DNA of 44,893 nt, from contig PZPA01000007.1 in NCBI GenBank assembly GCA_003045825.1, forward strand, positions 1-44,893, read 5' to 3'. Position numbers and translations under genes: made by a program. The notes below the pieces were generated by a model. That model ran no database searches. It worked only from the letters and a program-made list of their open reading frames with translations, and had not been told where the DNA came from. The stretch comes from Bacteroidota bacterium. GTDB taxonomy: Bacteria; Bacteroidota; Bacteroidia; Flavobacteriales; Schleiferiaceae. Of the stretch, positions 2,680 through 39,436 are shown one piece after another (within the stretch, counting starts at the first letter, position 1; each line of letters opens with the position of its first letter).

Positions 2680-5600
2680 ATGTCTATGCACCTACGCATT
2701 TTCGCTGCTTTGTTATTGAGTTTTGGGCTGCATGCTCAAGGCATTATGACCATTCCGACCAATGGTACCACTGATACGGCTACTAGTTGCTCTGGAATTT
2801 TCGTTGATGGTGGAGGCCTCAATGGAAATTACGGGAACTACAATAACGGCTACCTCATTATAGATCCACCCGGGACATCCCCGGTATCGTTGACATTTTC
2901 ATCGTTCTCCACAGCGAGCAGCTCTGATTACATCTACGTTTGGGACGGCGTAGGTACAAGTGGTTCTTTCATTGGGTATTATTACGGCAGTTCATTACCG
3001 AACGGAGGTTCGGCCATTACATCAACATCCGGTGCGTTGACCGTTCGCTTTTATTCAAACTATGCGGGTACCTCAAGCGGATTCGTATGTTCTTGGGCTA
3101 CCTCTGGTACTACGGCGCCAACGGCGAGTTTTACAACGACTTCCACCAGCATTAGCTACAATACACCGCTACAATTTGTTAATACAAGTCAAAATGCAGG
3201 ATCCTATGCATGGGATTTCGGTGATGGTTCAACGAGCACTGATCAATATCCAGAGCACAGTTATACGAGTTCGGGTGCCAAAACAGTTACGCTGGTCGCA
3301 ACGAATTGTTTCAGCAGTGATACGACGACAATGAACATCACAGTAGGGAGTGCGCCAAATGGCTCAATTTCAAACGATTCATTAGTAATAAACATTCCAT
3401 GTGGTACGACGGCCTCACAGTCCCTCACTTTTTCAAATGCAGCAAGCGCCGGAAATTTAGCGTTGAGTACAGCGCTCATCGATACCAATTATATTTTTAA
3501 AGCAGATTTTGAAGACGGAACCTTAGAGACGTTTACTTCGGCCAGTGCCAACGGCTCGTTGAGCAATACCAGTACAGTGACCAATTCGGGAAATGGCACG
3601 CTCATGATGAACGGCTACTTCAATACTAGTGCTACAACCAGTGCCAGTTTTTCTAATGCACAGCCTTCTCGAGCATCCTATGCAACGAAGGTAAATGCTG
3701 GACAAGGGGGGAGTGGTTATACCTGGTTTTCGGGGGATCAATATTCAACTCTTGGGTATTCACCCTTTGGTTATTCCTACTGGTATACCTCCAGTTTACG
3801 CCTAGTATACAGGCAGGCAAACGGTTATACCACAACGCACTTCGTATATACCACGGCGAATGAATTTGTAAACATCGAATACGATAATATCGACTGGACG
3901 AACAAGACTTTTGATATCATCATCGATGGCGTGACCATCGCTACGGGTGCCCAATTCTATTATAATTTGAATACGGGTATCAACGGTATTCACAGCTACC
4001 AGTACTCGACCTCTTACGTACATTATCTTGACGACGTTGAGGTACAAGGCGGGAACGCGCTCAGTATTGCGCAAAACCCAACTTCCGCTACAGTCGCGGG
4101 AGGAAACAACGTGGTCATGAATTTCACTGTGGATGCCACAGATTTGTATGCGGGGTCTTACTTCCTTGAATTGGCGTTGACCTCAAACGACACGGCGCTT
4201 GATGGAATGAAAATCCCTGTGATTGTAAATATTACAGGAGATGGAGTATGGGCCTCTAATTATTCCTCTTGTCTGAATATTTCTGGATATTCAGGAGCGG
4301 TAACCCGTGATACATTGAAGTTATGGAATACGGGTTGTGATACGTTAAGGGTGAACAGTGTATCTAAATCTACGAACCGATTAACCGTTGCAACCAATGG
4401 ATTTACTATAGCGCCTGAGGACACCGTTTATGTACCCTATGCTTGGGCCGCAGGTTCGGCAGGAACTTACAACGACAGCATTTTGTTCCAAGAGCAGGAT
4501 TCTATCTATGCGCATTGTATTACAGCGACAGTGCAAGATGCGCCATCTATTGGCTTTGACAGTACGGTATTCAATATATCGTATACCGGTTGTCCGGATT
4601 CATTGGTCGTTCCGTTTTGGTTGTACAACGATGGCCAGCAGACGCTGAATTGGGGGACATCGCCGATGGGTATGAACATTACGGAAGATTTTGAAACGGG
4701 AACGATGAATACTTCGCTTTGGAGTTACTTTGGTTCAGGTACGAATATTCAGTCCTCTACATACGGTTGTGGATCCATCAATGGTAGTTACAGTTTACAT
4801 TTTTATGGCGGTACGCGCTACGCCGCAACAGTTCCACTTAATCTTTTAAACGGAGGGACCGTATCCTTCGAGATGGATCAGGGCAATTGTGATAATGCCG
4901 AATCTGGTGAGGGAATTTATTTACAATACAGTACCAACGGTTCAACGTGGTACAACATCCAATACTTCTACACGTATTACTCTATGACCGCAACAGCTAC
5001 CATACCTGCAGCGGCAATGACCTCATCTACGCAGTTGAGATTGTACCAGCAGTCGTATAGTGGCTCATCTTATGACGCCTGGATAGTAGATGATTTTGAA
5101 GTAGATGCCGGTTTAGGAGTGAATCTCGCATTCAGCCCCGACACGGGTAATACAGCGGTTGGTGATTCAGAATTGGTCAATATTATTATTTACACCGATT
5201 CGTTGCAGGAAGGCCTGCATACATTCCAAGGATATATCAACAGTAATGATCCAGTGGATTCAACAGTATATCTTAAGGTAAATCTCACACTGGATGGGGT
5301 GAGTGAAACTTACGTTGATCGCACTGTATGTTTAGACCTGGATACTATCGTAAAAAATAGTGTCACTATAGATAGTATACTCGTCGAAAATTTGGGTTGT
5401 GACAGCCTTTATTTCAATGCGCTCACTACGTCAAGTACATTCTTTACAGCAACCAATGCTACCTCTCAAATGTGGGTAGGGGATAGCGCTTGGATACAGG
5501 TGACCATAAATCCAACGGCCACAGGTACAATAAATGACACTGTGTATGTTTCTACCTCAGATACGGTTTGGCCAGTGTGTTATGCGGGGTATGTAGCTGA

Positions 5601-8520
5601 AGCTCCTGCGGCATGGGTCAATACAACGCCATTGACTCTAAGTACCCAGAATTGTGGTGATAGTGTGAACTTTACCTTCGATTTGGGAAATACGGCATTG
5701 AATACAAACTTAAGTTGGAACGCTTCTTCTAACCCAGTTTTGAATGTTGTGGTGGTGAATCAAAATGTATACCCGTCGTTGTTATCAAACCTTCAAACCT
5801 ATTTGGGCGGTGTGAAAAATTTATCAGTCAAAACTGTCACGTCTTTATCAGCGATGGTATCAGAGTTGAATTGGGCTGATGTGGTCATCTTCCCACCAAT
5901 TACGAACAGTTCTGCTTCGACCGATTACACTGCAGTGCAATCGGATATGGAAGATTGGATTGAAGACGGAGGCAAGATGATCGTTATGGGGAGTACCTAT
6001 GTAGGTAATATCCTTGCGATGAACTGGATTAGCGGGTATTACTACGGCAACTACACGGGGTATACGCATTATGTGAATACGACCTATTCGAACCATCCCT
6101 ACATCCAAGGGGTTAGCAATTCGTTCGTGACACAATCGGCGTCACTAGATGCGTACATCTACAATACGGGTTTGATCTATTTAGTTTACAATACCTACTA
6201 CCGCCAAGCGCTTAGTTATTTGCCGATGGGCGATGGGGAGTTTATCTATTATGGATTTAACTTTAATACGGTTTACAGCGAGATTACAACCATGATGGAT
6301 AATATTCTCGAAAACACTTTAGCGAATAAAGATCAAGGGCCTAATTGGATACGTTTAAGTCCAAAGAGTGGTACAACTGCTGGAGGCGATACTACGACTG
6401 TTAGCGGTACAGCTTATTCCGATAGCCTTGCTGCAGGTAAACATGAGTTGACTATTACTGTAACTACGAATGATCCCTCGAATGGTTCATTCTCTATACC
6501 CGTTACTTTTACTGTAAACGGTTTGGGTGAGACGGCAGTGGAATCGGCTTGTACGAGCTGGGATTCGGTATACCAAAACATGAATCATATCAAAGATGTT
6601 CCCTTCTATAACGTAGGTTGTGACACCCTGACATTGACCGGAACAGCAACGGGTACTAACGTCTTTACGGCAGCAAGTCCATCGCTGAGTATTGCGCCTG
6701 GCGATACGGGATATATTCCAGTGACCCTTAATTCAAGTACGCTAGGTAGCGTCAGTGATCAATTAACTATTTACACCAATGCGGATACCATTACGCATTG
6801 TTTATCAGGCGTTATTGTGGGTGCGGCAGATATTAGTGTGAGCCCTAGCAGTATAACGGTAACGGTAAATAAGTGTAACAGCTTTACGACGGTCCCTTAT
6901 ACCATAACTAATAACGGTTCAGCTGCACTGAGTTATGAGGTGAGCGTTGCGGAGGTGTACGATTCGAGCTCGACACAGAATTGGCTGTATCCTGCACCGA
7001 ACTACTCCAATACCCAAGTGCATACGTTTAACAACATTATCGATTCGGATACCTTGTTCTACAGCATTATTTTAAATGGGGAGTATAGTGCTACAAGTAA
7101 CTACTTCTACCTGTATGCGAACGGGTATTACATCCAAACGCTTTACGATAACAATGTTGCGAATTATACCAATGATACTATTTCAGGATTCTTAACTGGT
7201 ACTACGTTAACGAACATCATCAATAATGGTTATTTGACGATCCAATTGTATTCGTACAACTATACGTATGCTACGGGACAAACTTGTACGGTTGAGGTTT
7301 ATCAAAAAGATCTAGTGACCTGGGCATCTCCAGTAGGTTTAACTACGGGTTCGGTAGGCGCAGGTAATAGCGTGTCAAAATCATTACTTGTCACCGTGAG
7401 TAATCTGGCAGTGGGTACCTACAATACGACGGTCTTGTTCGAGACGAATGACCCTCAAGATCCGTTATATCAGGTGCCAATGACGGTCAATGTGGTCAGC
7501 GAGCCCGATATGGTATTGGGAACCAATGCTGTGAATTATGGTAATGTCTACAATACCACACCTGTAAAGGACTCTGTCTTAGTCACGAATGACGGTTGTA
7601 CAGATTTGTCTATTTCAAATGTGGTTGCGAATAATGCGCATTTTGTGCCGAGTTGGACCTCAAAGGTTATCGCTGCGGGCGCAAGTGCATGGCTAGACGT
7701 GACCTTTACCGCAACTACGGCGACGCAACAAACGGGTATCCTTACGATCACGAATAACGACAGTATTCAATACGTCAACCTCGCGGCTAATGTTATTTTC
7801 GCACCAGATGCGGACTATCAATACCAAGTGCAGAATGCCTGTAATGGCGAAGTCAGTTTTATCAATGAAAGCACGAATGGTTCGCAATATTTCTGGGCAT
7901 TCGGAGATGGAACCTTCTCTGCCGCGGTGAATCCGACCCACAATTACAGCAAACCTGGTACGTATCAAGTGATGCTCGTTACCTCAAATGCTGGGGGTTC
8001 AGACACGTTGTATAAGAACGTGGCGTTGAACGATATTTTATATGTTGCTTCAGAGTTTCCGGATACAGTGCAGGCTGGAACTACCGTTCAGTTTATCGAT
8101 TCTTCTATGTATGCCAATTCATGGCAGTGGTACTTTGGAGACGGCGGTAACGCAACATCACCAAATCCTCAGCACACTTATGCGAACAAGGGTACATTCA
8201 TCGTAACCTTGCTGGTCACAAATTCCGCAGGCTGTTCAGGATCAGATAATGATGCCATTATTGTTACGAGTGGTATTGGTATAGACCAAAACCTAGCAAT
8301 TGATTTAACGCTCTATCCAAATCCAACGCAAGGATTGATAGAGGTGCAAACCTCTGCTGAGGTATTGCGAATGGAGCTGTACAGTCCGGCAGGACAGCTT
8401 GTATTTGAAGCACCATTCCGTACGAAAATAGACTTGAGCGCGTACCCAACGGGTACCTATCAATTGGTGTTTAGGGGCGAGGATTTTGTTGTCCGTAAAT
8501 CGGTAGGTATTCTCCACTAA
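2680..8520 (+). CDS. Giant secreted modular protein: CUB, PKD, four long repeat units with inserted domains, type IX sorting domain
   Basis: This 1946-residue protein begins with a signal peptide (residues 1-20, ending LLSFGLHAQ). A CUB-like domain spans about 22-143 (YIYVWDGV). A PKD domain spans about 149-222 with WDFGDG at 178. Four long tandem units follow at about 228-620, 621-974, 975-1381 and 1382-1707. Each opens with a BACON-like strand pattern and closes with a segment ending SNDP or TNDP; in the first three a choice-of-anchor-D-like block with GCDTL or GCDSL comes next, and in the fourth the equivalent block reads GCTDL. Units A-C carry a different domain in the middle: a jelly-roll-like insert (274-456), a reelin-like insert (667-808, LQYSTNGSTW) and a glutamine-amidotransferase-like fold (1020-1214). 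Two more PKD domains have WAFGDG at 1739 and WYFGDG at 1817. The end (about 1865-1946, LYPNPTQG at 1878) is a type A sorting domain, so the protein should cross the outer membrane by type IX secretion and be surface-anchored or released. An adhesive role is likely but inferred. Confidence 0.92.
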   Translation: MSMHLRIFAALLLSFGLHAQGIMTIPTNGTTDTATSCSGIFVDGGGLNGNYGNYNNGYLIIDPPGTSPVSLTFSSFSTASSSDYIYVWDGVGTSGSFIGYYYGSSLPNGGSAITSTSGALTVRFYSNYAGTSSGFVCSWATSGTTAPTASFTTTSTSISYNTPLQFVNTSQNAGSYAWDFGDGSTSTDQYPEHSYTSSGAKTVTLVATNCFSSDTTTMNITVGSAPNGSISNDSLVINIPCGTTASQSLTFSNAASAGNLALSTALIDTNYIFKADFEDGTLETFTSASANGSLSNTSTVTNSGNGTLMMNGYFNTSATTSASFSNAQPSRASYATKVNAGQGGSGYTWFSGDQYSTLGYSPFGYSYWYTSSLRLVYRQANGYTTTHFVYTTANEFVNIEYDNIDWTNKTFDIIIDGVTIATGAQFYYNLNTGINGIHSYQYSTSYVHYLDDVEVQGGNALSIAQNPTSATVAGGNNVVMNFTVDATDLYAGSYFLELALTSNDTALDGMKIPVIVNITGDGVWASNYSSCLNISGYSGAVTRDTLKLWNTGCDTLRVNSVSKSTNRLTVATNGFTIAPEDTVYVPYAWAAGSAGTYNDSILFQEQDSIYAHCITATVQDAPSIGFDSTVFNISYTGCPDSLVVPFWLYNDGQQTLNWGTSPMGMNITEDFETGTMNTSLWSYFGSGTNIQSSTYGCGSINGSYSLHFYGGTRYAATVPLNLLNGGTVSFEMDQGNCDNAESGEGIYLQYSTNGSTWYNIQYFYTYYSMTATATIPAAAMTSSTQLRLYQQSYSGSSYDAWIVDDFEVDAGLGVNLAFSPDTGNTAVGDSELVNIIIYTDSLQEGLHTFQGYINSNDPVDSTVYLKVNLTLDGVSETYVDRTVCLDLDTIVKNSVTIDSILVENLGCDSLYFNALTTSSTFFTATNATSQMWVGDSAWIQVTINPTATGTINDTVYVSTSDTVWPVCYAGYVAEAPAAWVNTTPLTLSTQNCGDSVNFTFDLGNTALNTNLSWNASSNPVLNVVVVNQNVYPSLLSNLQTYLGGVKNLSVKTVTSLSAMVSELNWADVVIFPPITNSSASTDYTAVQSDMEDWIEDGGKMIVMGSTYVGNILAMNWISGYYYGNYTGYTHYVNTTYSNHPYIQGVSNSFVTQSASLDAYIYNTGLIYLVYNTYYRQALSYLPMGDGEFIYYGFNFNTVYSEITTMMDNILENTLANKDQGPNWIRLSPKSGTTAGGDTTTVSGTAYSDSLAAGKHELTITVTTNDPSNGSFSIPVTFTVNGLGETAVESACTSWDSVYQNMNHIKDVPFYNVGCDTLTLTGTATGTNVFTAASPSLSIAPGDTGYIPVTLNSSTLGSVSDQLTIYTNADTITHCLSGVIVGAADISVSPSSITVTVNKCNSFTTVPYTITNNGSAALSYEVSVAEVYDSSSTQNWLYPAPNYSNTQVHTFNNIIDSDTLFYSIILNGEYSATSNYFYLYANGYYIQTLYDNNVANYTNDTISGFLTGTTLTNIINNGYLTIQLYSYNYTYATGQTCTVEVYQKDLVTWASPVGLTTGSVGAGNSVSKSLLVTVSNLAVGTYNTTVLFETNDPQDPLYQVPMTVNVVSEPDMVLGTNAVNYGNVYNTTPVKDSVLVTNDGCTDLSISNVVANNAHFVPSWTSKVIAAGASAWLDVTFTATTATQQTGILTITNNDSIQYVNLAANVIFAPDADYQYQVQNACNGEVSFINESTNGSQYFWAFGDGTFSAAVNPTHNYSKPGTYQVMLVTSNAGGSDTLYKNVALNDILYVASEFPDTVQAGTTVQFIDSSMYANSWQWYFGDGGNATSPNPQHTYANKGTFIVTLLVTNSAGCSGSDNDAIIVTSGIGIDQNLAIDLTLYPNPTQGLIEVQTSAEVLRMELYSPAGQLVFEAPFRTKIDLSAYPTGTYQLVFRGEDFVVRKSVGILH

Positions 8521-8610: not shown

Positions 8611-9870
8611 TTAGCCGTTGAATGCCTTCTTGAAAGCATCTACAAAGTCGAGTTTTTCCCAAGTAAATAGTTCGACGTCAAGACTGAGTTCTGTTTTGCC
8701 ATCGGCAGACTTGAATGTCTTTGTAACGGTTTCGTTGGTACGTCCCATGTGGCCGTAGGCCGCACTTTCACTATACATCGGTTGACGCAGTTTTAAATTT
8801 TTCTCAATCAATCCCGGACGGAAATCGTAAAGTTCCTTCACCTTAGCTGCGATTTCACCATCGGTAAAATCAACTTTCGAAGTACCGTAGGTATCCACGA
8901 AAACGCCCATCGGCTCAACCACACCGATGGCATAAGAAACTTGTACGAGTACTTGGTCACATACACCGGCAGCCACGAGATTTTTTGCTACGTGGCGCGT
9001 TGCATACGCAGCAGAACGGTCCACTTTAGAGGGATCCTTGCCAGAGAAGGCACCACCACCGTGTGCACCCTTGCCGCCGTAGGTATCTACAATGATTTTA
9101 CGTCCGGTCAAACCAGTATCACCGTGCGGTCCGCCAATCACGAACTTCCCGGTAGGGTTGATGTGGTATTTAATATCGTCACCAAACAAGGCTTGAATGT
9201 TAGGCGGTAGGTCGGCTTTTACTGCAGGAATAACCAAGTTTACAATGTCTGCTTTGATTTTCGCCAACATCACTTCGTCATTTGCATTGAAATCATCGTG
9301 TTGTGTACTCACTACGATGGCTTCTATACGTTCGGGCTTATTGTCGTCACTGTATTGAATAGTCACCTGACTTTTTGAATCCGGACGCAAATAAGGGATT
9401 TGTGCACCGTCTCTTCTGAAATCGGCCAATTTCTGTAAGATGCGGTGGCTAAGATCCAGTGCCAATGGCATATAGTTTTCCGTTTCATTTGAAGCGTAAC
9501 CAAACATCATTCCCTGATCACCAGCACCTTGGTCTTCAGGATTCCCGCGGTCTACACCACGATTGATGTCGTCACTCTGGTCATGAATAGCGCTCAATAC
9601 ACCGCAAGAATTGGCTTCAAACATGTATTCACTTTTCGTGTAACCAATGCGTTGTATGACATCACGAGTAATGCTTTGTACATCTAAGTACGCTGAAGAT
9701 TTTACCTCGCCGGCAAGAATGACTTGACCCGTCGTAACCAGGGTTTCACAAGCTACTTTTGATTGAGGGTCAAAGGCCAAAAAGTTATCTATAATGGCAT
9801 CTGATATTTGATCGGCTACTTTGTCTGGGTGGCCTTCTGAAACACTCTCTGAAGTGAAGAAATAAGACAT
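8611..9870 (-). CDS. metK: S-adenosylmethionine synthase (methionine adenosyltransferase)
   Basis: MetK makes S-adenosylmethionine from methionine and ATP (EC 2.5.1.6). The 419-residue length is slightly above the usual ~385-400. The family signatures are present: [16 protein letters not shown] near the N-terminus with the methionine- and ATP-site residues, [12 protein letters not shown] in the centre, and the glycine-rich [19 protein letters not shown]. The start ATG at 9870 is directly followed by the conserved [16 protein letters not shown]. The gene is divergent from metH across a 349-bp gap. A SAM-II-type riboswitch and a -7 box lie upstream on the same strand, so expression is probably feedback-controlled by its own product. 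Confidence 0.98.
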
Positions 9871-9921
9871 CTCTCTATAGATTTATTAGGGTTTACTAAA
9901 ACTTAGGTAGAAATATAAAAG

Positions 9922-9979
9922 CTGCTTGCCCTGCGAGATGTGTGCTGTATTTAGCATTTTTTATCGTGGTTGCAAGCAG
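9922..9979 (-). promoter_or_regulatory. Long-range stem in the metK leader that competes with the SAM-II aptamer
   Basis: On the minus strand CTGCTTGC (9979-9972), inside the aptamer, is perfectly complementary to GCAAGCAG (9929-9922) downstream; the loop is 42 nt. The second arm is followed by CTTTTATATTT, a U-rich stretch. The stem cannot coexist with the SAM-bound fold, because its first arm contains the conserved TTGCA core. It is therefore a candidate expression platform. Whether it acts as terminator, anti-sequester or nothing at all cannot be told by eye. Confidence 0.45.
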
Positions 9980-9995
9980 TCAAATCCTTCCACTG
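9944..9995 (-). promoter_or_regulatory. SAM-II riboswitch aptamer upstream of metK
   Basis: Read on the minus strand, the leader has the SAM-II (metA motif) layout. P1 is GTGG (9993-9990) pairing with CCAC (9969-9966). Between them lie the conserved GATTTG and CTTGCAA. After P1 come GATAAA and GCTAAA (9955-9950), which form the pseudoknot side of the family consensus. The size, about 50 nt, fits this very small class. SAM-II is known mainly from alphaproteobacteria, with Bacteroidota examples. The match was recognised by eye from the conserved blocks, not by covariance search. Placement directly upstream of metK fits SAM feedback. Confidence 0.8.
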
Positions 9996-9998
9996 CCC

Positions 9999-10006
9999 CA
10001 AAAGTA
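9999..10006 (-). promoter_or_regulatory. metK: Candidate -7 promoter box for metK
   Basis: The minus strand reads TACTTTTG, matching TAnnTTTG exactly. The predicted transcript start is near 9995, 2 nt before P1 of the SAM-II aptamer, so the mRNA would begin with the riboswitch. No convincing TTG was found at -33. Confidence 0.5.
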
Positions 10007-10060
10007 GAAAAGATTTTGAGTTTCTATGCTTGAGATGCAACTTTTTCGAAAAATACGTTC

Positions 10061-10068
10061 TAATTTTA
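10061..10068 (+). promoter_or_regulatory. Weak candidate -7 box for the metH-metF operon
   Basis: TAATTTTA differs from TAnnTTTG at the last base. It would place the transcript start at about 10072, just before the SAM-I aptamer begins at 10075. No TTG was seen at -33. The position supports it more than the sequence does. Confidence 0.3.
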
Positions 10069-10074
10069 CCCCGC

Positions 10075-10164
10075 TATCAAGAAAGACTGAGGGATTGGGC
10101 CCTGTGATGTCTTGGCAACCCGGAAGCGCCGGGTGCCACCACCCACCCGAACAAGGGAATGATA
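10075..10164 (+). promoter_or_regulatory. SAM-I riboswitch (S-box) upstream of split metH
   Basis: The leader shows the SAM-I order of conserved blocks: TATCAAGA, then GAGGGATTGG, GCCC, GATG, GGCAACC, GGTGCCA, and a closing strand TGATA. P1 pairs TATCA (10075-10079) with TGATA (10160-10164). The 90-nt length is compact for the class but acceptable. The 55 nt between aptamer and start codon contain no strong hairpin with a U-tract, so control is more likely at translation than by a classical terminator. In the family, SAM binding represses methionine-cycle genes. Confidence 0.92.
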
Positions 10165-10219
10165 CGTATCGCAGACGCAGCGCCACCTCCTTTCTTCTTA
10201 GCACCTAACCTTGGAAGAG

Positions 10220-11212
10220 ATGACAATAACAAAAGCTGTACAGCAAAAGATTTTAGTTTTGGACGGTGCCATGGGTACCATGATTCAAGCCTATAAGTTT
10301 GAAGAGGAGGACTACCGTGGTGATCGGTTTGCAGACTACCCGTATTCTCTTAAGGGCAATAACGATCTTTTAGTACTCACGCAACCGAAGGCTATCGATG
10401 CCATCCATCTTGCCTATCTCGAGGCCGGTGCTGATATTCTAGAGACTAATACGTTCAATTCCAACAGCATCTCTATGGAGGATTACCACATGAGTGATCT
10501 CGTGGTAGAACTGAACAAGGCCGCTGTGGAAAGCGCCCGCCGCGCCATCGATCAGTACCGCGCAAATGGTGGGACTGAGGCGAAATATATAGCCGGCTCT
10601 GTGGGACCGACGAATAAAACAGCTTCCTTGAGCCCAGATGTGAATAATCCAGGATTTAGAGCGGTGTCTTTTGATGATTTACGCGAGTGTTATTTCGAGC
10701 AATGTGAAGCGCTCGTTGAGGCGGGAGTGGATGCTTTATTGATTGAGACGGTATTCGATACGTTGAATGCGAAGGCCGCCCTATTTGCTGCGCAAGATGC
10801 AATAGAGGCTTCTGGCCGTGAGGTCGCGATCATGCTCAGCGGCACCATTACGGATGCTTCGGGACGCACCCTAAGCGGCCAGACCACGGAGGCCTTTCTA
10901 ATCTCTGTGGGGCATGCACCTTTATTGAGTATAGGATTGAATTGTGCCTTGGGTGCGAAACAATTGATGCCGTACCTACAGACCTTAGATGCTAAAGCGC
11001 CTTTTGCAGTCAGCGCACACCCCAACGCAGGATTACCCAACGCTTTTGGCGAATACGACGAGACTGCGGATCAAATGGCGGCTCAGATTAAGGACTATTT
11101 AGAATTGAACCTCGTTAATATTATCGGCGGTTGTTGCGGGACTTCTCCTGCGCACATTGCGGCCATTGCTGAATTGGCAAAAAACTACAATCCCCGTACC
11201 TATGTCGCATAA
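10220..11212 (+). CDS. metH: Methionine synthase, homocysteine-binding subunit (N-terminal half of split MetH)
   Basis: This 330-residue protein is the homocysteine S-methyltransferase barrel that forms the N-terminal module of cobalamin-dependent MetH. It starts with the family motif [12 protein letters not shown]. The zinc and homocysteine ligands are visible as C242 (GLNCALGAK) and C305/C306 ([12 protein letters not shown]). It activates homocysteine and must work with the next gene product, which holds folate, cobalamin and reactivation modules. The ATG at 10220 is preferred over a TTG at 10211. The stop overlaps the next start by 11 bp, so the two halves are translated together. The gene is controlled by the SAM-I leader. 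Confidence 0.95.
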
Positions 11213-13859
11213 TCTTCCAAATCGACCTATGCGTCTTTCGGGTTTAGAGCCCTTAGTCATTACGCCTGATACCAATTTTGTAAACGTAGGCGAACGCACT
11301 AATGTTACGGGTTCTAAAAAATTCTTGCGCCTAATTAAAGAGCGCAATTTCGACGAAGCATTAGATGTTGCACGCGACCAGGTAGAGGGCGGTGCGCAAA
11401 TCATTGATATCAATATGGACGAAGGAATGATCGATGGGGTAGAAGCCATGACGACATTCTTGAACCTTATCGCTGCAGAGCCTGATATAGCTCGAGTGCC
11501 CATCATGATTGATAGTTCTAAATGGGAAATCATAGAAGCGGGCTTAAAATGTGTACAGGGCAAATGCGTGGTGAATTCCATTTCGCTGAAAGGCGGCGAA
11601 GAAGAATTTATTGCGCAAGCGCGTACCATTAAGCGCTACGGTGCTGCAGTCATTATTATGGCCTTTGATGAAGACGGTCAGGCGGATTCGTACGAGCGTC
11701 GTATTGAGATTTGTGAACGGTCCTACCGAATCTTAAGGGAACAATTAAATTTCCCACCAGAAGATATCGTCTTTGATCCCAATATTTTCCCAGTAGCTAC
11801 AGGGATGGAGGAACACCGGAAAAATGCACTCGATTTCTTCCGTGCCACAAGGTGGATCAAAGAAAACCTGCCTTACGCAAAGGTGAGTGGCGGCGTTTCG
11901 AATGTGAGCTTTTCTTTTAGAGGGAATAACACCGTACGTGAGGCGATGCATGCATCATTCTTGTACCACGCTATTCAACACGGTATGGACATGGGCATTG
12001 TGAATCCGACCATGTTAGAAGTGTATGCAGAGGTCGACAAGGAACTCATGGAGCATATTGAAGATGTGTTACTGGATCGAAGGGACGACGCGACAGAACG
12101 CTTGTTAGAGTTCTCCCAAACGGTTGAAGGTACCGTAAAAGATGAAGCTAAAGTATTGGAATGGCGCAATGCGTCGGTTGCAAAACGACTGGAGCACGCA
12201 CTGATAAAAGGAATTACAGAATTCATCGATGAAGATGTTGAAGAGGCCCGTCAATCTTTTGCGAAGCCACTGCACGTGATTGAAGGGCCACTCATGGATG
12301 GAATGAACGTGGTTGGTGACCTTTTCGGAGCGGGGAAAATGTTCCTACCGCAAGTGGTGAAAAGTGCTCGCGTCATGAAGAAGGCGGTGGCTTATTTGAT
12401 GCCTTATTTAGAGGCAGAAAAAGAAGTAGGCACCTCCTCGAGTGCAGGAAAAGTTTTGCTTGCTACGGTAAAAGGGGATGTGCACGATATTGGGAAAAAC
12501 ATTGTAGGTGTTGTCATGGCATGCAACAACTTTGAAATCATAGATCTTGGAGTGATGGTGCCACCGGAGAAAATCTTGCAAGCGGCGCAAGAGCATCAGG
12601 TGGATATCATTGGTTTGAGCGGGTTAATAACGCCGTCTCTGGATGAAATGATTCACATCGCAAAAGAAATGAAGCGTTTGGGTATGACGCAGCCCTTATT
12701 GATTGGGGGTGCTACGACCTCACGAGCACACACCGCGGTAAAGATTGATCCGGAATTTGACGGCCCTGTATTACACGTTGTTGATGCCAGCAGGGCAGTA
12801 GGCGTTTGTTCCAAACTGTTGAGTGAGCAGGGTGCATTGTACGCACAAACGGAAAAAGAGGGCTTGGCGAAGGTTCGTGAAGGCTATGCGAAACACCGCG
12901 AGAAAAAGGCATTAGTCCCGCTGATGTATGCGCAGGCGAATAAACCGAAACTCGTATTTGATTCATCTACAGTGCCAACGCCAAAATTCATTGGAACAAA
13001 GCATGTTTTGAACGTTCCAATAGGAGAGGTTGTCCCGTTTATCGATTGGACTCCGTTTTTCCAAACGTGGCAGCTTTTTGGCAAATTCCCCCGAATACTC
13101 GAAGATGCCGTTGTAGGGGAGCAGGCAAAAAGTGTGTATGCCGATGCCCAAAAAATGTTGCGTACGCTGCAAAAGGAGCAATGGTTGACCCTAAATGCAG
13201 CGTATGGTATTTTCCCTGCGCAGAGTCGAGGTGAAGAAATTTTATTAGGCGAAAAAGGCAAATTGGGAAGTTTTTACACCCTCCGACAAACGGGAGAGAA
13301 ATCCAAATTTCAGGCGCTCTCAGATTTTATTGCGCCAGAAGGTACCGTTCAGGATTATGTCGGTGGATTTGCCGTGACCGCAGGACTTGATATTGAGAGG
13401 ACCTTAGCGAAATTTGATGCCGCACTGGACGATTACAGCAGCCTTATGTTAAAGGCACTGGCCGATCGATTGGCCGAAGGTTTGGCAGAATATGTGCATT
13501 TGAAAATTCGTCGTGAGATATGGGGGTATGCTCCTGAAGAGCAGTTGACGAATGAGCAGCTCATTGCTGAGAAATACCGCGGCATTCGTCCAGCACCGGG
13601 CTATCCTGCTTGTCCAGATCACCTCGATAAATCGACGTTATTTGACCTACTGGACGCACCGGCTATTGGTATGTCGTTAACTGAAAGTTTAGCGATGTAT
13701 CCTGCCTCAAGCGTGAGTGGGTATTATTTTGCCCATCCGGATTCAAAATATTTCGCCGTCGGAAAATTGGCCAAAGATCAGATAGAATCGTATGCCGCCC
13801 TTCGTGGCATTGATGTAGCGACCGTAGAAAAGTGGTTGGCTCCTAACCTTAACTATTAA
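11202..13859 (+). CDS. metH: Methionine synthase, folate/cobalamin/activation subunit (C-terminal part of split MetH)
   Basis: This 885-residue protein carries the remaining MetH modules: a pterin-binding barrel (about 25-280; [11 protein letters not shown] and [11 protein letters not shown]), the cobalamin cap and B12 domain, and the AdoMet reactivation domain (about 560-885) with [12 protein letters not shown] from residue 796. In the B12 domain GDVHDIGKN gives the DxHxxG motif at 426-431, with H428 as the lower axial cobalt ligand. It moves the methyl group from methyl-tetrahydrofolate through cobalamin to homocysteine held by the upstream subunit. The start at ATG 11202 fits the 11-bp overlap better than the GTG-like start at 11157. 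The next gene, metF, makes its folate substrate. Confidence 0.96.
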
Positions 13860-13862
13860 GCA

Positions 13863-14816
13863 ATGAAGATTACCGATTTACTACAAGAAGTCAAGGAGTG
13901 CCAATTCACGTTCGAAATTCTTCCGCCGCTTAAAGGGCAGAAGGCAATGGAGATCTTTGATAATTTGGACCCTTTGATGGAGTTCAAGCCACCGTTCATT
14001 GATGTGACCTACCACCGCGAGGAGACCATTTATAAGCGTTTAGACAACGGATTACTCCAAGAAAAAGTAGTTCGTAAGCGACCAGGTACTGTTGGGATTT
14101 GTGCCGCGATTATGAACCGCTATGATACTGAAACCGTACCGCACGTTCTTTGTGGCGGATTTTCGCGAGAGGAAACAGAAAATTTACTGATTGATTTGAA
14201 TTTCCTGGGTATTGAAAATGTTGTGGCATTACGCGGCGATCAGGCTAAGCACGAGAGTTACTTTACTCCGCACAAAGAAGGAAATGCTTTTGCTATTGAT
14301 TTGGTGCACCAAATAAAGGATTTGAATCAGGGCAAATACCTCGACGAGGAATTGCAAAATACAACCGCAACGAACTTTTGTATTGGCGTCGCTGGATACC
14401 CAGAGAAGCATTTTGAAGCGCCGTCTTTGAATCTCGATATTGAGTACTTAAAGGCAAAAGTTGAGGCAGGGGCCGATTATATCGTTACCCAGCTCTTCTT
14501 TGACAACAGTAAATATTTTGCTTTTGTAGAAAAATGCCGTGCCGCTGGTATTACGGTGCCTATCATCCCAGGTCTAAAGCCGTTATCTACAAAGCGTCAA
14601 TTGAGCATTTTGCCCCAGATCTTTCACGTGGATATTCCTGATGATTTGGCTATCCAAGCCATTAAATGCAAGGACAATACACAGGTTAGGCAATTGGGTA
14701 TTGATTGGTGTATACAGCAGAGTAAGGAACTTAGAGACGCTGGGGTACCGGTGCTGCATTACTACAGCATGGGCAAGAGTCAAAACATTTACGAGATCGC
14801 TAGCGCTATTTTTTAG
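13863..14816 (+). CDS. metF: Methylenetetrahydrofolate reductase
   Basis: MetF reduces 5,10-methylene-tetrahydrofolate to 5-methyl-tetrahydrofolate with FAD (EC 1.5.1.20), the methyl donor for MetH. At 317 residues it has the usual bacterial length and reads through a TIM barrel: FTFEILPPLKG near the start (catalytic glutamate), FIDVTYHREE, ALRGDQ, GVAGYPEKH and GADYIVTQLFFDN. It begins 3 bp after the metH stop, so the three genes form one SAM-I-controlled operon. Its stop overlaps the stop of the convergent downstream gene by 4 bp. Confidence 0.98.
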   Translation: MKITDLLQEVKECQFTFEILPPLKGQKAMEIFDNLDPLMEFKPPFIDVTYHREETIYKRLDNGLLQEKVVRKRPGTVGICAAIMNRYDTETVPHVLCGGFSREETENLLIDLNFLGIENVVALRGDQAKHESYFTPHKEGNAFAIDLVHQIKDLNQGKYLDEELQNTTATNFCIGVAGYPEKHFEAPSLNLDIEYLKAKVEAGADYIVTQLFFDNSKYFAFVEKCRAAGITVPIIPGLKPLSTKRQLSILPQIFHVDIPDDLAIQAIKCKDNTQVRQLGIDWCIQQSKELRDAGVPVLHYYSMGKSQNIYEIASAIF

Positions 14817-39272: not shown

Positions 39273-39304
39273 CGTCTTTCCTCAAAATTTAGGGCACAAA
39301 AAAT

Positions 39305-39400
39305 GGGCAAGCTACTCACATCACACCGCTACGACCAATTACCCTTGCTGCGTTCCCGCCCTGGGGGATTCACCAGGAGCTGGTTGTGTGAGACTTGCCC
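39305..39400 (-). ncRNA. ffs: Signal recognition particle RNA (small bacterial type, 4.5S-like)
   Basis: The 96-nt minus-strand transcript has ends GGGCAAG and CTTGCCC that pair (7 bp), further pairing of CTCACA with TGTGAG, and the conserved SRP core. The core contains GGCGGGAACGCAGCAAGGG: a GGAA tetraloop closed by GCG/CGC, then the GCAGCAAGG strand of the symmetric and asymmetric loops bound by Ffh. The RNA is followed by six T (39303-39298). A -7 box stands 4 nt upstream. The RNA acts with Ffh in co-translational membrane targeting. Recognised by eye from these conserved elements. Confidence 0.93.
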
Positions 39401-39404
39401 AACG

Positions 39405-39436
39405 CAAAGTTACATCAACTAACCGCGCGAGACCAA
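39405..39436 (-). promoter_or_regulatory. ffs: Promoter of the SRP RNA gene
   Basis: The minus strand carries TTG (39436-39434), 21 nt of spacer and a perfect -7 box TAACTTTG (39412-39405). The predicted transcript start at about 39401 coincides with the first base of the folded SRP RNA at 39400, which supports both calls. Confidence 0.72.

Follow-up and report, generated by a model that had tools for sequence, protein, structure and literature searches.

Divergent SAM-II and SAM-I riboswitches between metK and metH in the Flavobacteriales, with a proposed gate on the start codon

A survey from 2007 found no species that carries both SAM-I and SAM-II, two classes of riboswitch for S-adenosylmethionine (SAM). 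Pairs of structurally distinct SAM riboswitches have since been described within one intergenic region, as SAM-II/SAM-V tandems (PMC9481103) and rare SAM-II/SAM-I-IV tandems (PMC2704228), in which both elements lie on one transcript and serve one gene. A long-loop form of SAM-II is known from the Bacteroidetes, upstream of metK (Weinberg et al., 2010; PMC2864571); the main text of that paper is silent on a divergent SAM-I partner and on gating of the start codon. In Sinorhizobium, the SAM-II element of metA controls translation through a Shine-Dalgarno sequence located in the aptamer, with the start codon ~74 nt downstream (PMC9373788). Here we analyse contig PZPA01000007.1 of a member of the Schleiferiaceae (Bacteroidota; Flavobacteriales; assembly GCA_003045825.1), a stretch of 44,893 nucleotides referred to below as the window, in which a SAM-II and a SAM-I riboswitch face away from each other between metK and metH. 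The two elements lie on opposite strands and belong to two operons, and the pair is therefore not a tandem in the described sense.

The gap between the two genes spans positions 9871-10219 (349 bp) and contains a single aptamer of each class. The SAM-II aptamer (9941-9999, minus strand) lies in the leader of metK (8611-9870, minus), which encodes methionine adenosyltransferase (SAM synthetase; NCBIfam equivalog TIGR01034, 506 bits). A scan of the window with cmscan matched it to RF01726 over model positions 1-60, with 56.2 bits against a gathering score of 44 (E 3e-8), whereas the match to RF00521 (SAM-II alpha) stayed below the gathering score. The hallmark of the long-loop family, a P1 hairpin followed by the conserved 3' tail AAUGCUAAA, is present in the alignment of the window, and the core is also found in relatives. 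By covariance score and alignment, the metK leader RNA is thus a member of the SAM-II long loops, with which it also shares its occurrence in Bacteroidetes and its position upstream of metK. A preliminary description of this DNA had placed two divergent SAM riboswitch classes in the gap; its coordinates, strands and gene assignments agree with the cmscan and NCBIfam results, and of the two Rfam families it named, RF00162 was recovered for SAM-I, while SAM-II is present as RF01726 and not as RF00521.

The SAM-I (S-box) aptamer (10071-10167, plus strand) precedes the first of the two open reading frames (ORFs) of metH. It matches RF00162 with 54.1 bits against a gathering score of 44.4 (E 8e-10), and has the P1-P4 junction with the GAGGGA, GGCAACC and GGUGCCA signatures of the class; P4 is short and partly mispaired. 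Whole-genome searches of the 1.83-Mb genome returned one copy of each class, SAM-II at metK and SAM-I at metH. Several genomes of the same genus contain a second, stronger SAM-I (80-86 bits; L088 positions 1501-1607, and by search score also L086, L091, L097-L101 and L103), which in L088 precedes an OsmC-like gene and a pyridoxal phosphate-dependent sulfhydrylase-like gene and is absent from the genome of the window.

The divergent pairing is old and widespread in this order of Bacteroidota and is not a one-off. Among 88 genomes of the same family, SAM-I was found in 72 and SAM-II in 64. A comparison of the gap across these relatives shows the pair to be conserved: a divergent SAM-I lies within 200 bp in 30 of the 64 genomes with SAM-II and at ~1-10 kb, with intervening DNA, in 23 more, so that 53/64 have a divergent partner on the same contig. 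SAM-I is on the same strand in two of the others; the remaining nine, several of which are fragmented assemblies, have none on the same contig. Across 296 genomes of the order, SAM-II is present in 217 and SAM-I in 201, and close divergent metK/metH pairs occur in two further families (loci L192-L196). DNA of members of the order matches loci of Flavobacterium and Flagellimonas, which suggests an affiliation with the Flavobacteriales. In Polaribacter AI_MB73 (L021), SAM-II precedes metK and SAM-I faces a metH-metF region, one unassigned stretch lying between them, and in Polaribacter MAG_294 (L041) the SAM-II/SAM-I pair stands beside metK, with SAM-I before a putative metY-like gene, identified from its sequence. 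A regular-expression screen of 80 named loci misses SAM-II variants, and its counts are lower bounds. Few complete metK genes were found by search in the genomes without SAM-II, and most of these apparent absences may therefore be assembly gaps or missed genes. Conservation in dozens of relatives rules out a chance occurrence. The preliminary description knew of no such arrangement; we also found none described in the literature, in a search of main texts that covered few subscription papers, but the case is not singular, as it recurs throughout the family and in other families.

A subclade of a sister genus is losing SAM-II. Locus L183 retains a degenerate copy (26 bits, 1384-1440), L186 has none upstream of metK at 1501 and keeps the metH SAM-I, and metK of L184 and L185 has no SAM riboswitch within the 4.3 kb examined; together these loci form a natural loss series.

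Each aptamer is preceded by a putative Bacteroidetes-type -7 promoter box. The metK leader has TACTTTTG (9999-10006, minus), which fits the consensus TAnnTTTG, and the metH leader has TAATTTTA (10061-10068, plus), a degenerate version that is the predominant form within the genus. The TAnnTTTG box is found 4-16 nt 5' of the SAM-II core in 47/50 metK leaders and 5-9 nt 5' of SAM-I in 27/46 metH leaders, most of the remainder having close variants. With the published spacing, which puts the box at -12 to -5 (PMC9723704), the metK transcript would start at ~9994 (minus), on the nucleotide preceding P1, and the metH transcript at ~10073 (plus), at the 5' strand of SAM-I P1; in either case the first transcribed base would probably fall on the aptamer's own 5' strand or one nucleotide ahead of it. 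With these starts, the gap would consist of leaders of 124 nt (metK) and 147 nt (metH) flanking ~80 bp of promoter DNA.

Both leaders contain sequence complementary to the aptamer and sequence that can pair with the start codon region. In the metK leader, the aptamer strand CTGCTTGC (9972-9979, minus) has a perfect complement in GCAAGCAG (9922-9929, minus), and the two are paired in the fold of the full leader. With the fold restricted to downstream RNA, ACATCTC (9935-9941, minus), situated just past the aptamer, pairs with GAGATGT (9873-9867), which contains the metK start codon (ATG, 9870-9868); this duplex has an energy of -9.9 kcal/mol. Over 16 groups, the anti-aptamer strand outperformed shuffled sequences with a combined p of 5e-9, a value overstated by shared ancestry. 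Other genera use different strands complementary to the SAM-II aptamer strand, and in other lineages the metK start codon is paired by CATTCGT/ACGAATG or GCATACTGC/GCAGTATGT. The distance from the SAM-II aptamer to the ATG clusters at 56-100 nt across three or more families.

The metH leader follows a similar layout. The 5' switching strand of the aptamer, CTATCAAGAAAGA (10074-10086, plus; P1, J1/2 and the 5' side of P2), is targeted by an anti-aptamer strand (compared with shuffles, p=0.021 for the leader in the window), as is usual for the P1 5' strand in SAM-I. According to folds, duplexes and J1/2 covariation, CCTTTCTTCTTAGC (10189-10202, plus) would alternate between this strand in the free state and GGAAGAGATGA (10213-10223, plus), which contains the metH start codon (ATG, 10220-10222), in the occupied state. 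Counterparts of CCTTTCTTCTTAGC lie ~12-29 nt upstream of the AUG in most relatives and perform better than shuffled leaders in most groups. Pairing of the SAM-I 5' strand with the leader gave a combined p of 1e-8 over 14 groups, which is overstated by shared ancestry and comes from a test restricted to the 5' switching strand after a few sequences had been viewed. A global duplex of the whole aptamer with the leader gave p 0.4 and is uninformative, because GC-rich parts of the aptamer match anything. The variable J1/2 base covaries with its leader partner (A:U 18, C:G 15 and G:C 2, versus 7 non-pairs). The CCTTTCTTCTTAGC-type strand or a neighbour of it pairs with the start codon region through sequences that differ by genus (CATCTCC/GGAGATG, GTCCTTC/GAAGGAC next to the ATG, GTCATAG/CTATGAC), and the distance from aptamer to ATG clusters at 45-70 nt, apart from three outliers longer than 100 nt, again across three or more families.

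To quantify gating, the cost of opening the region from -10 to +6 was computed from pseudoknot-free thermodynamic folds, the free state being represented by the whole leader and the occupied state by the leader with the aptamer removed. In the window, opening the metK start costs 7.9 kcal/mol in the occupied and 4.8 in the free state, and opening the metH start 9.0 and 1.3 kcal/mol; the median for 24 other ORFs of the window is 4.3. The occupied state was the more costly one in 15/16 metK groups and 13/14 metH groups. Shuffled aptamers opened the start less well than the real aptamer in 14/15 metK and 10/13 metH groups, and the effect is therefore not merely due to extra upstream RNA. Raw pairing probabilities of the AUG compared with shuffled leaders were mixed, and opening costs with shuffled-aptamer controls are the clearer measure.

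We consider it probable that the gap holds two independent SAM-OFF translational riboswitches, which fire outward from shared promoter DNA and gate the start codon without a Shine-Dalgarno site. At low SAM, the strand between aptamer and gene would pair back into the aptamer and leave the start codon accessible, allowing metK to supply SAM and metH-metF to supply methionine. With SAM bound, the aptamer would keep its own strands, and the leader would refold such that ACATCTC (metK) or UUUCUUCUUAG (metH) pairs with the start codon and blocks initiation. A Shine-Dalgarno site would play no part in either switch. Such sites are absent from Bacteroidetes, whose translation is tuned by structure near the start codon (PMC6847099), in keeping with a gate that acts directly on the AUG. 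For both leaders, these models are our basis for inferring SAM binding, the fold adopted in the cell and the direction of control. The mechanism would differ from the Sinorhizobium metA element in that a leader strand pairs with the AUG itself. It would also depart from S-box leaders with the same aptamer upstream of metH-metF, in that the expression platform pairs with the start codon, and neither a terminator nor a Shine-Dalgarno site was seen.

Several observations weigh against this model. The metH sequestor alone, in the window, is not distinguished from shuffles (p=0.15), and the contrast between the occupied and free metK leader is modest. In genus group g17, the metK AUG is no more paired than in shuffles, and the sequestration effect is small in groups g4, g9 and f3. 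Moreover, the folds omit pseudoknots and tertiary structure, and removal of the aptamer only approximates the occupied state.

Premature transcription termination by both riboswitches, as predicted for many SAM-II leaders of Proteobacteria, is an unlikely alternative: the pyrimidine-rich leaders of the genus could favour Rho, but positions 9840-10260 yielded no hairpin with a U tract that resembles a terminator, and where strong hairpins form downstream, they overlap with the start codon rather than a U tract. Intrinsic termination was dropped as a candidate, as the gap offers no site for it. That one or both elements are decayed, functionless remnants is quite improbable. The window SAM-I scores below many of its relatives (54 bits), and SAM-II is degenerate (L183) or lost (L186) in the sister-genus subclade that retains the metH SAM-I; however, the window retains an intact SAM-II core and intact SAM-I signatures, and both elements and their platforms are kept in all 16 same-genus genomes in which the pair was found. 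Least probable is a SAM-II ON switch, in which the strong CTGCTTGC/GCAAGCAG helix would inhibit without SAM and SAM would raise metK, since in folds and opening costs this helix frees the start instead of blocking it, known SAM-II units on biosynthesis genes repress (PMC9373788), and feedback logic speaks against it.

On the plus strand, metH is encoded in two ORFs (10220-13859), followed by metF. The first (10220-11212) encodes the N-terminal half with the homocysteine-binding part (PRK09490 model positions 12-337), and the second (11205-13859, start codon approximate) the C-terminal half (positions 342-1231); metH is apparently split in related loci too. The methylenetetrahydrofolate reductase gene metF (13863-14816, plus) matches the TIGR00676 equivalog over the cut-off (303 bits). 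Converging on metK, a plus-strand gene (2680-8520) encodes a predicted secreted protein of 1946 residues that carries PKD-like repeats and, at its C-terminus, a sorting-like end. The window further contains a Bacteroidales small signal recognition particle RNA (39301-39407, minus; 112 bits, cmscan). A contig labelled Verrucomicrobia (L010) encodes a MetK 77% identical to the Bacteroidota protein of the window, probably owing to a binning error.

The preliminary description had proposed a separate tuning of the metK and metH outputs, to different SAM levels or different kinetics. This is possible, but not required, because two aptamers acquired separately and then conserved for long would leave the same picture. 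We tentatively speculate that both classes may have been retained next to each other from an early point in the history of the order to serve different SAM ranges, with separate set points, and may have converged on the same kind of strand, alternating between aptamer and AUG independently of a Shine-Dalgarno site. One fragment of 350 bp suffices to study the relative affinities, the kinetics and the gating of the start codon.
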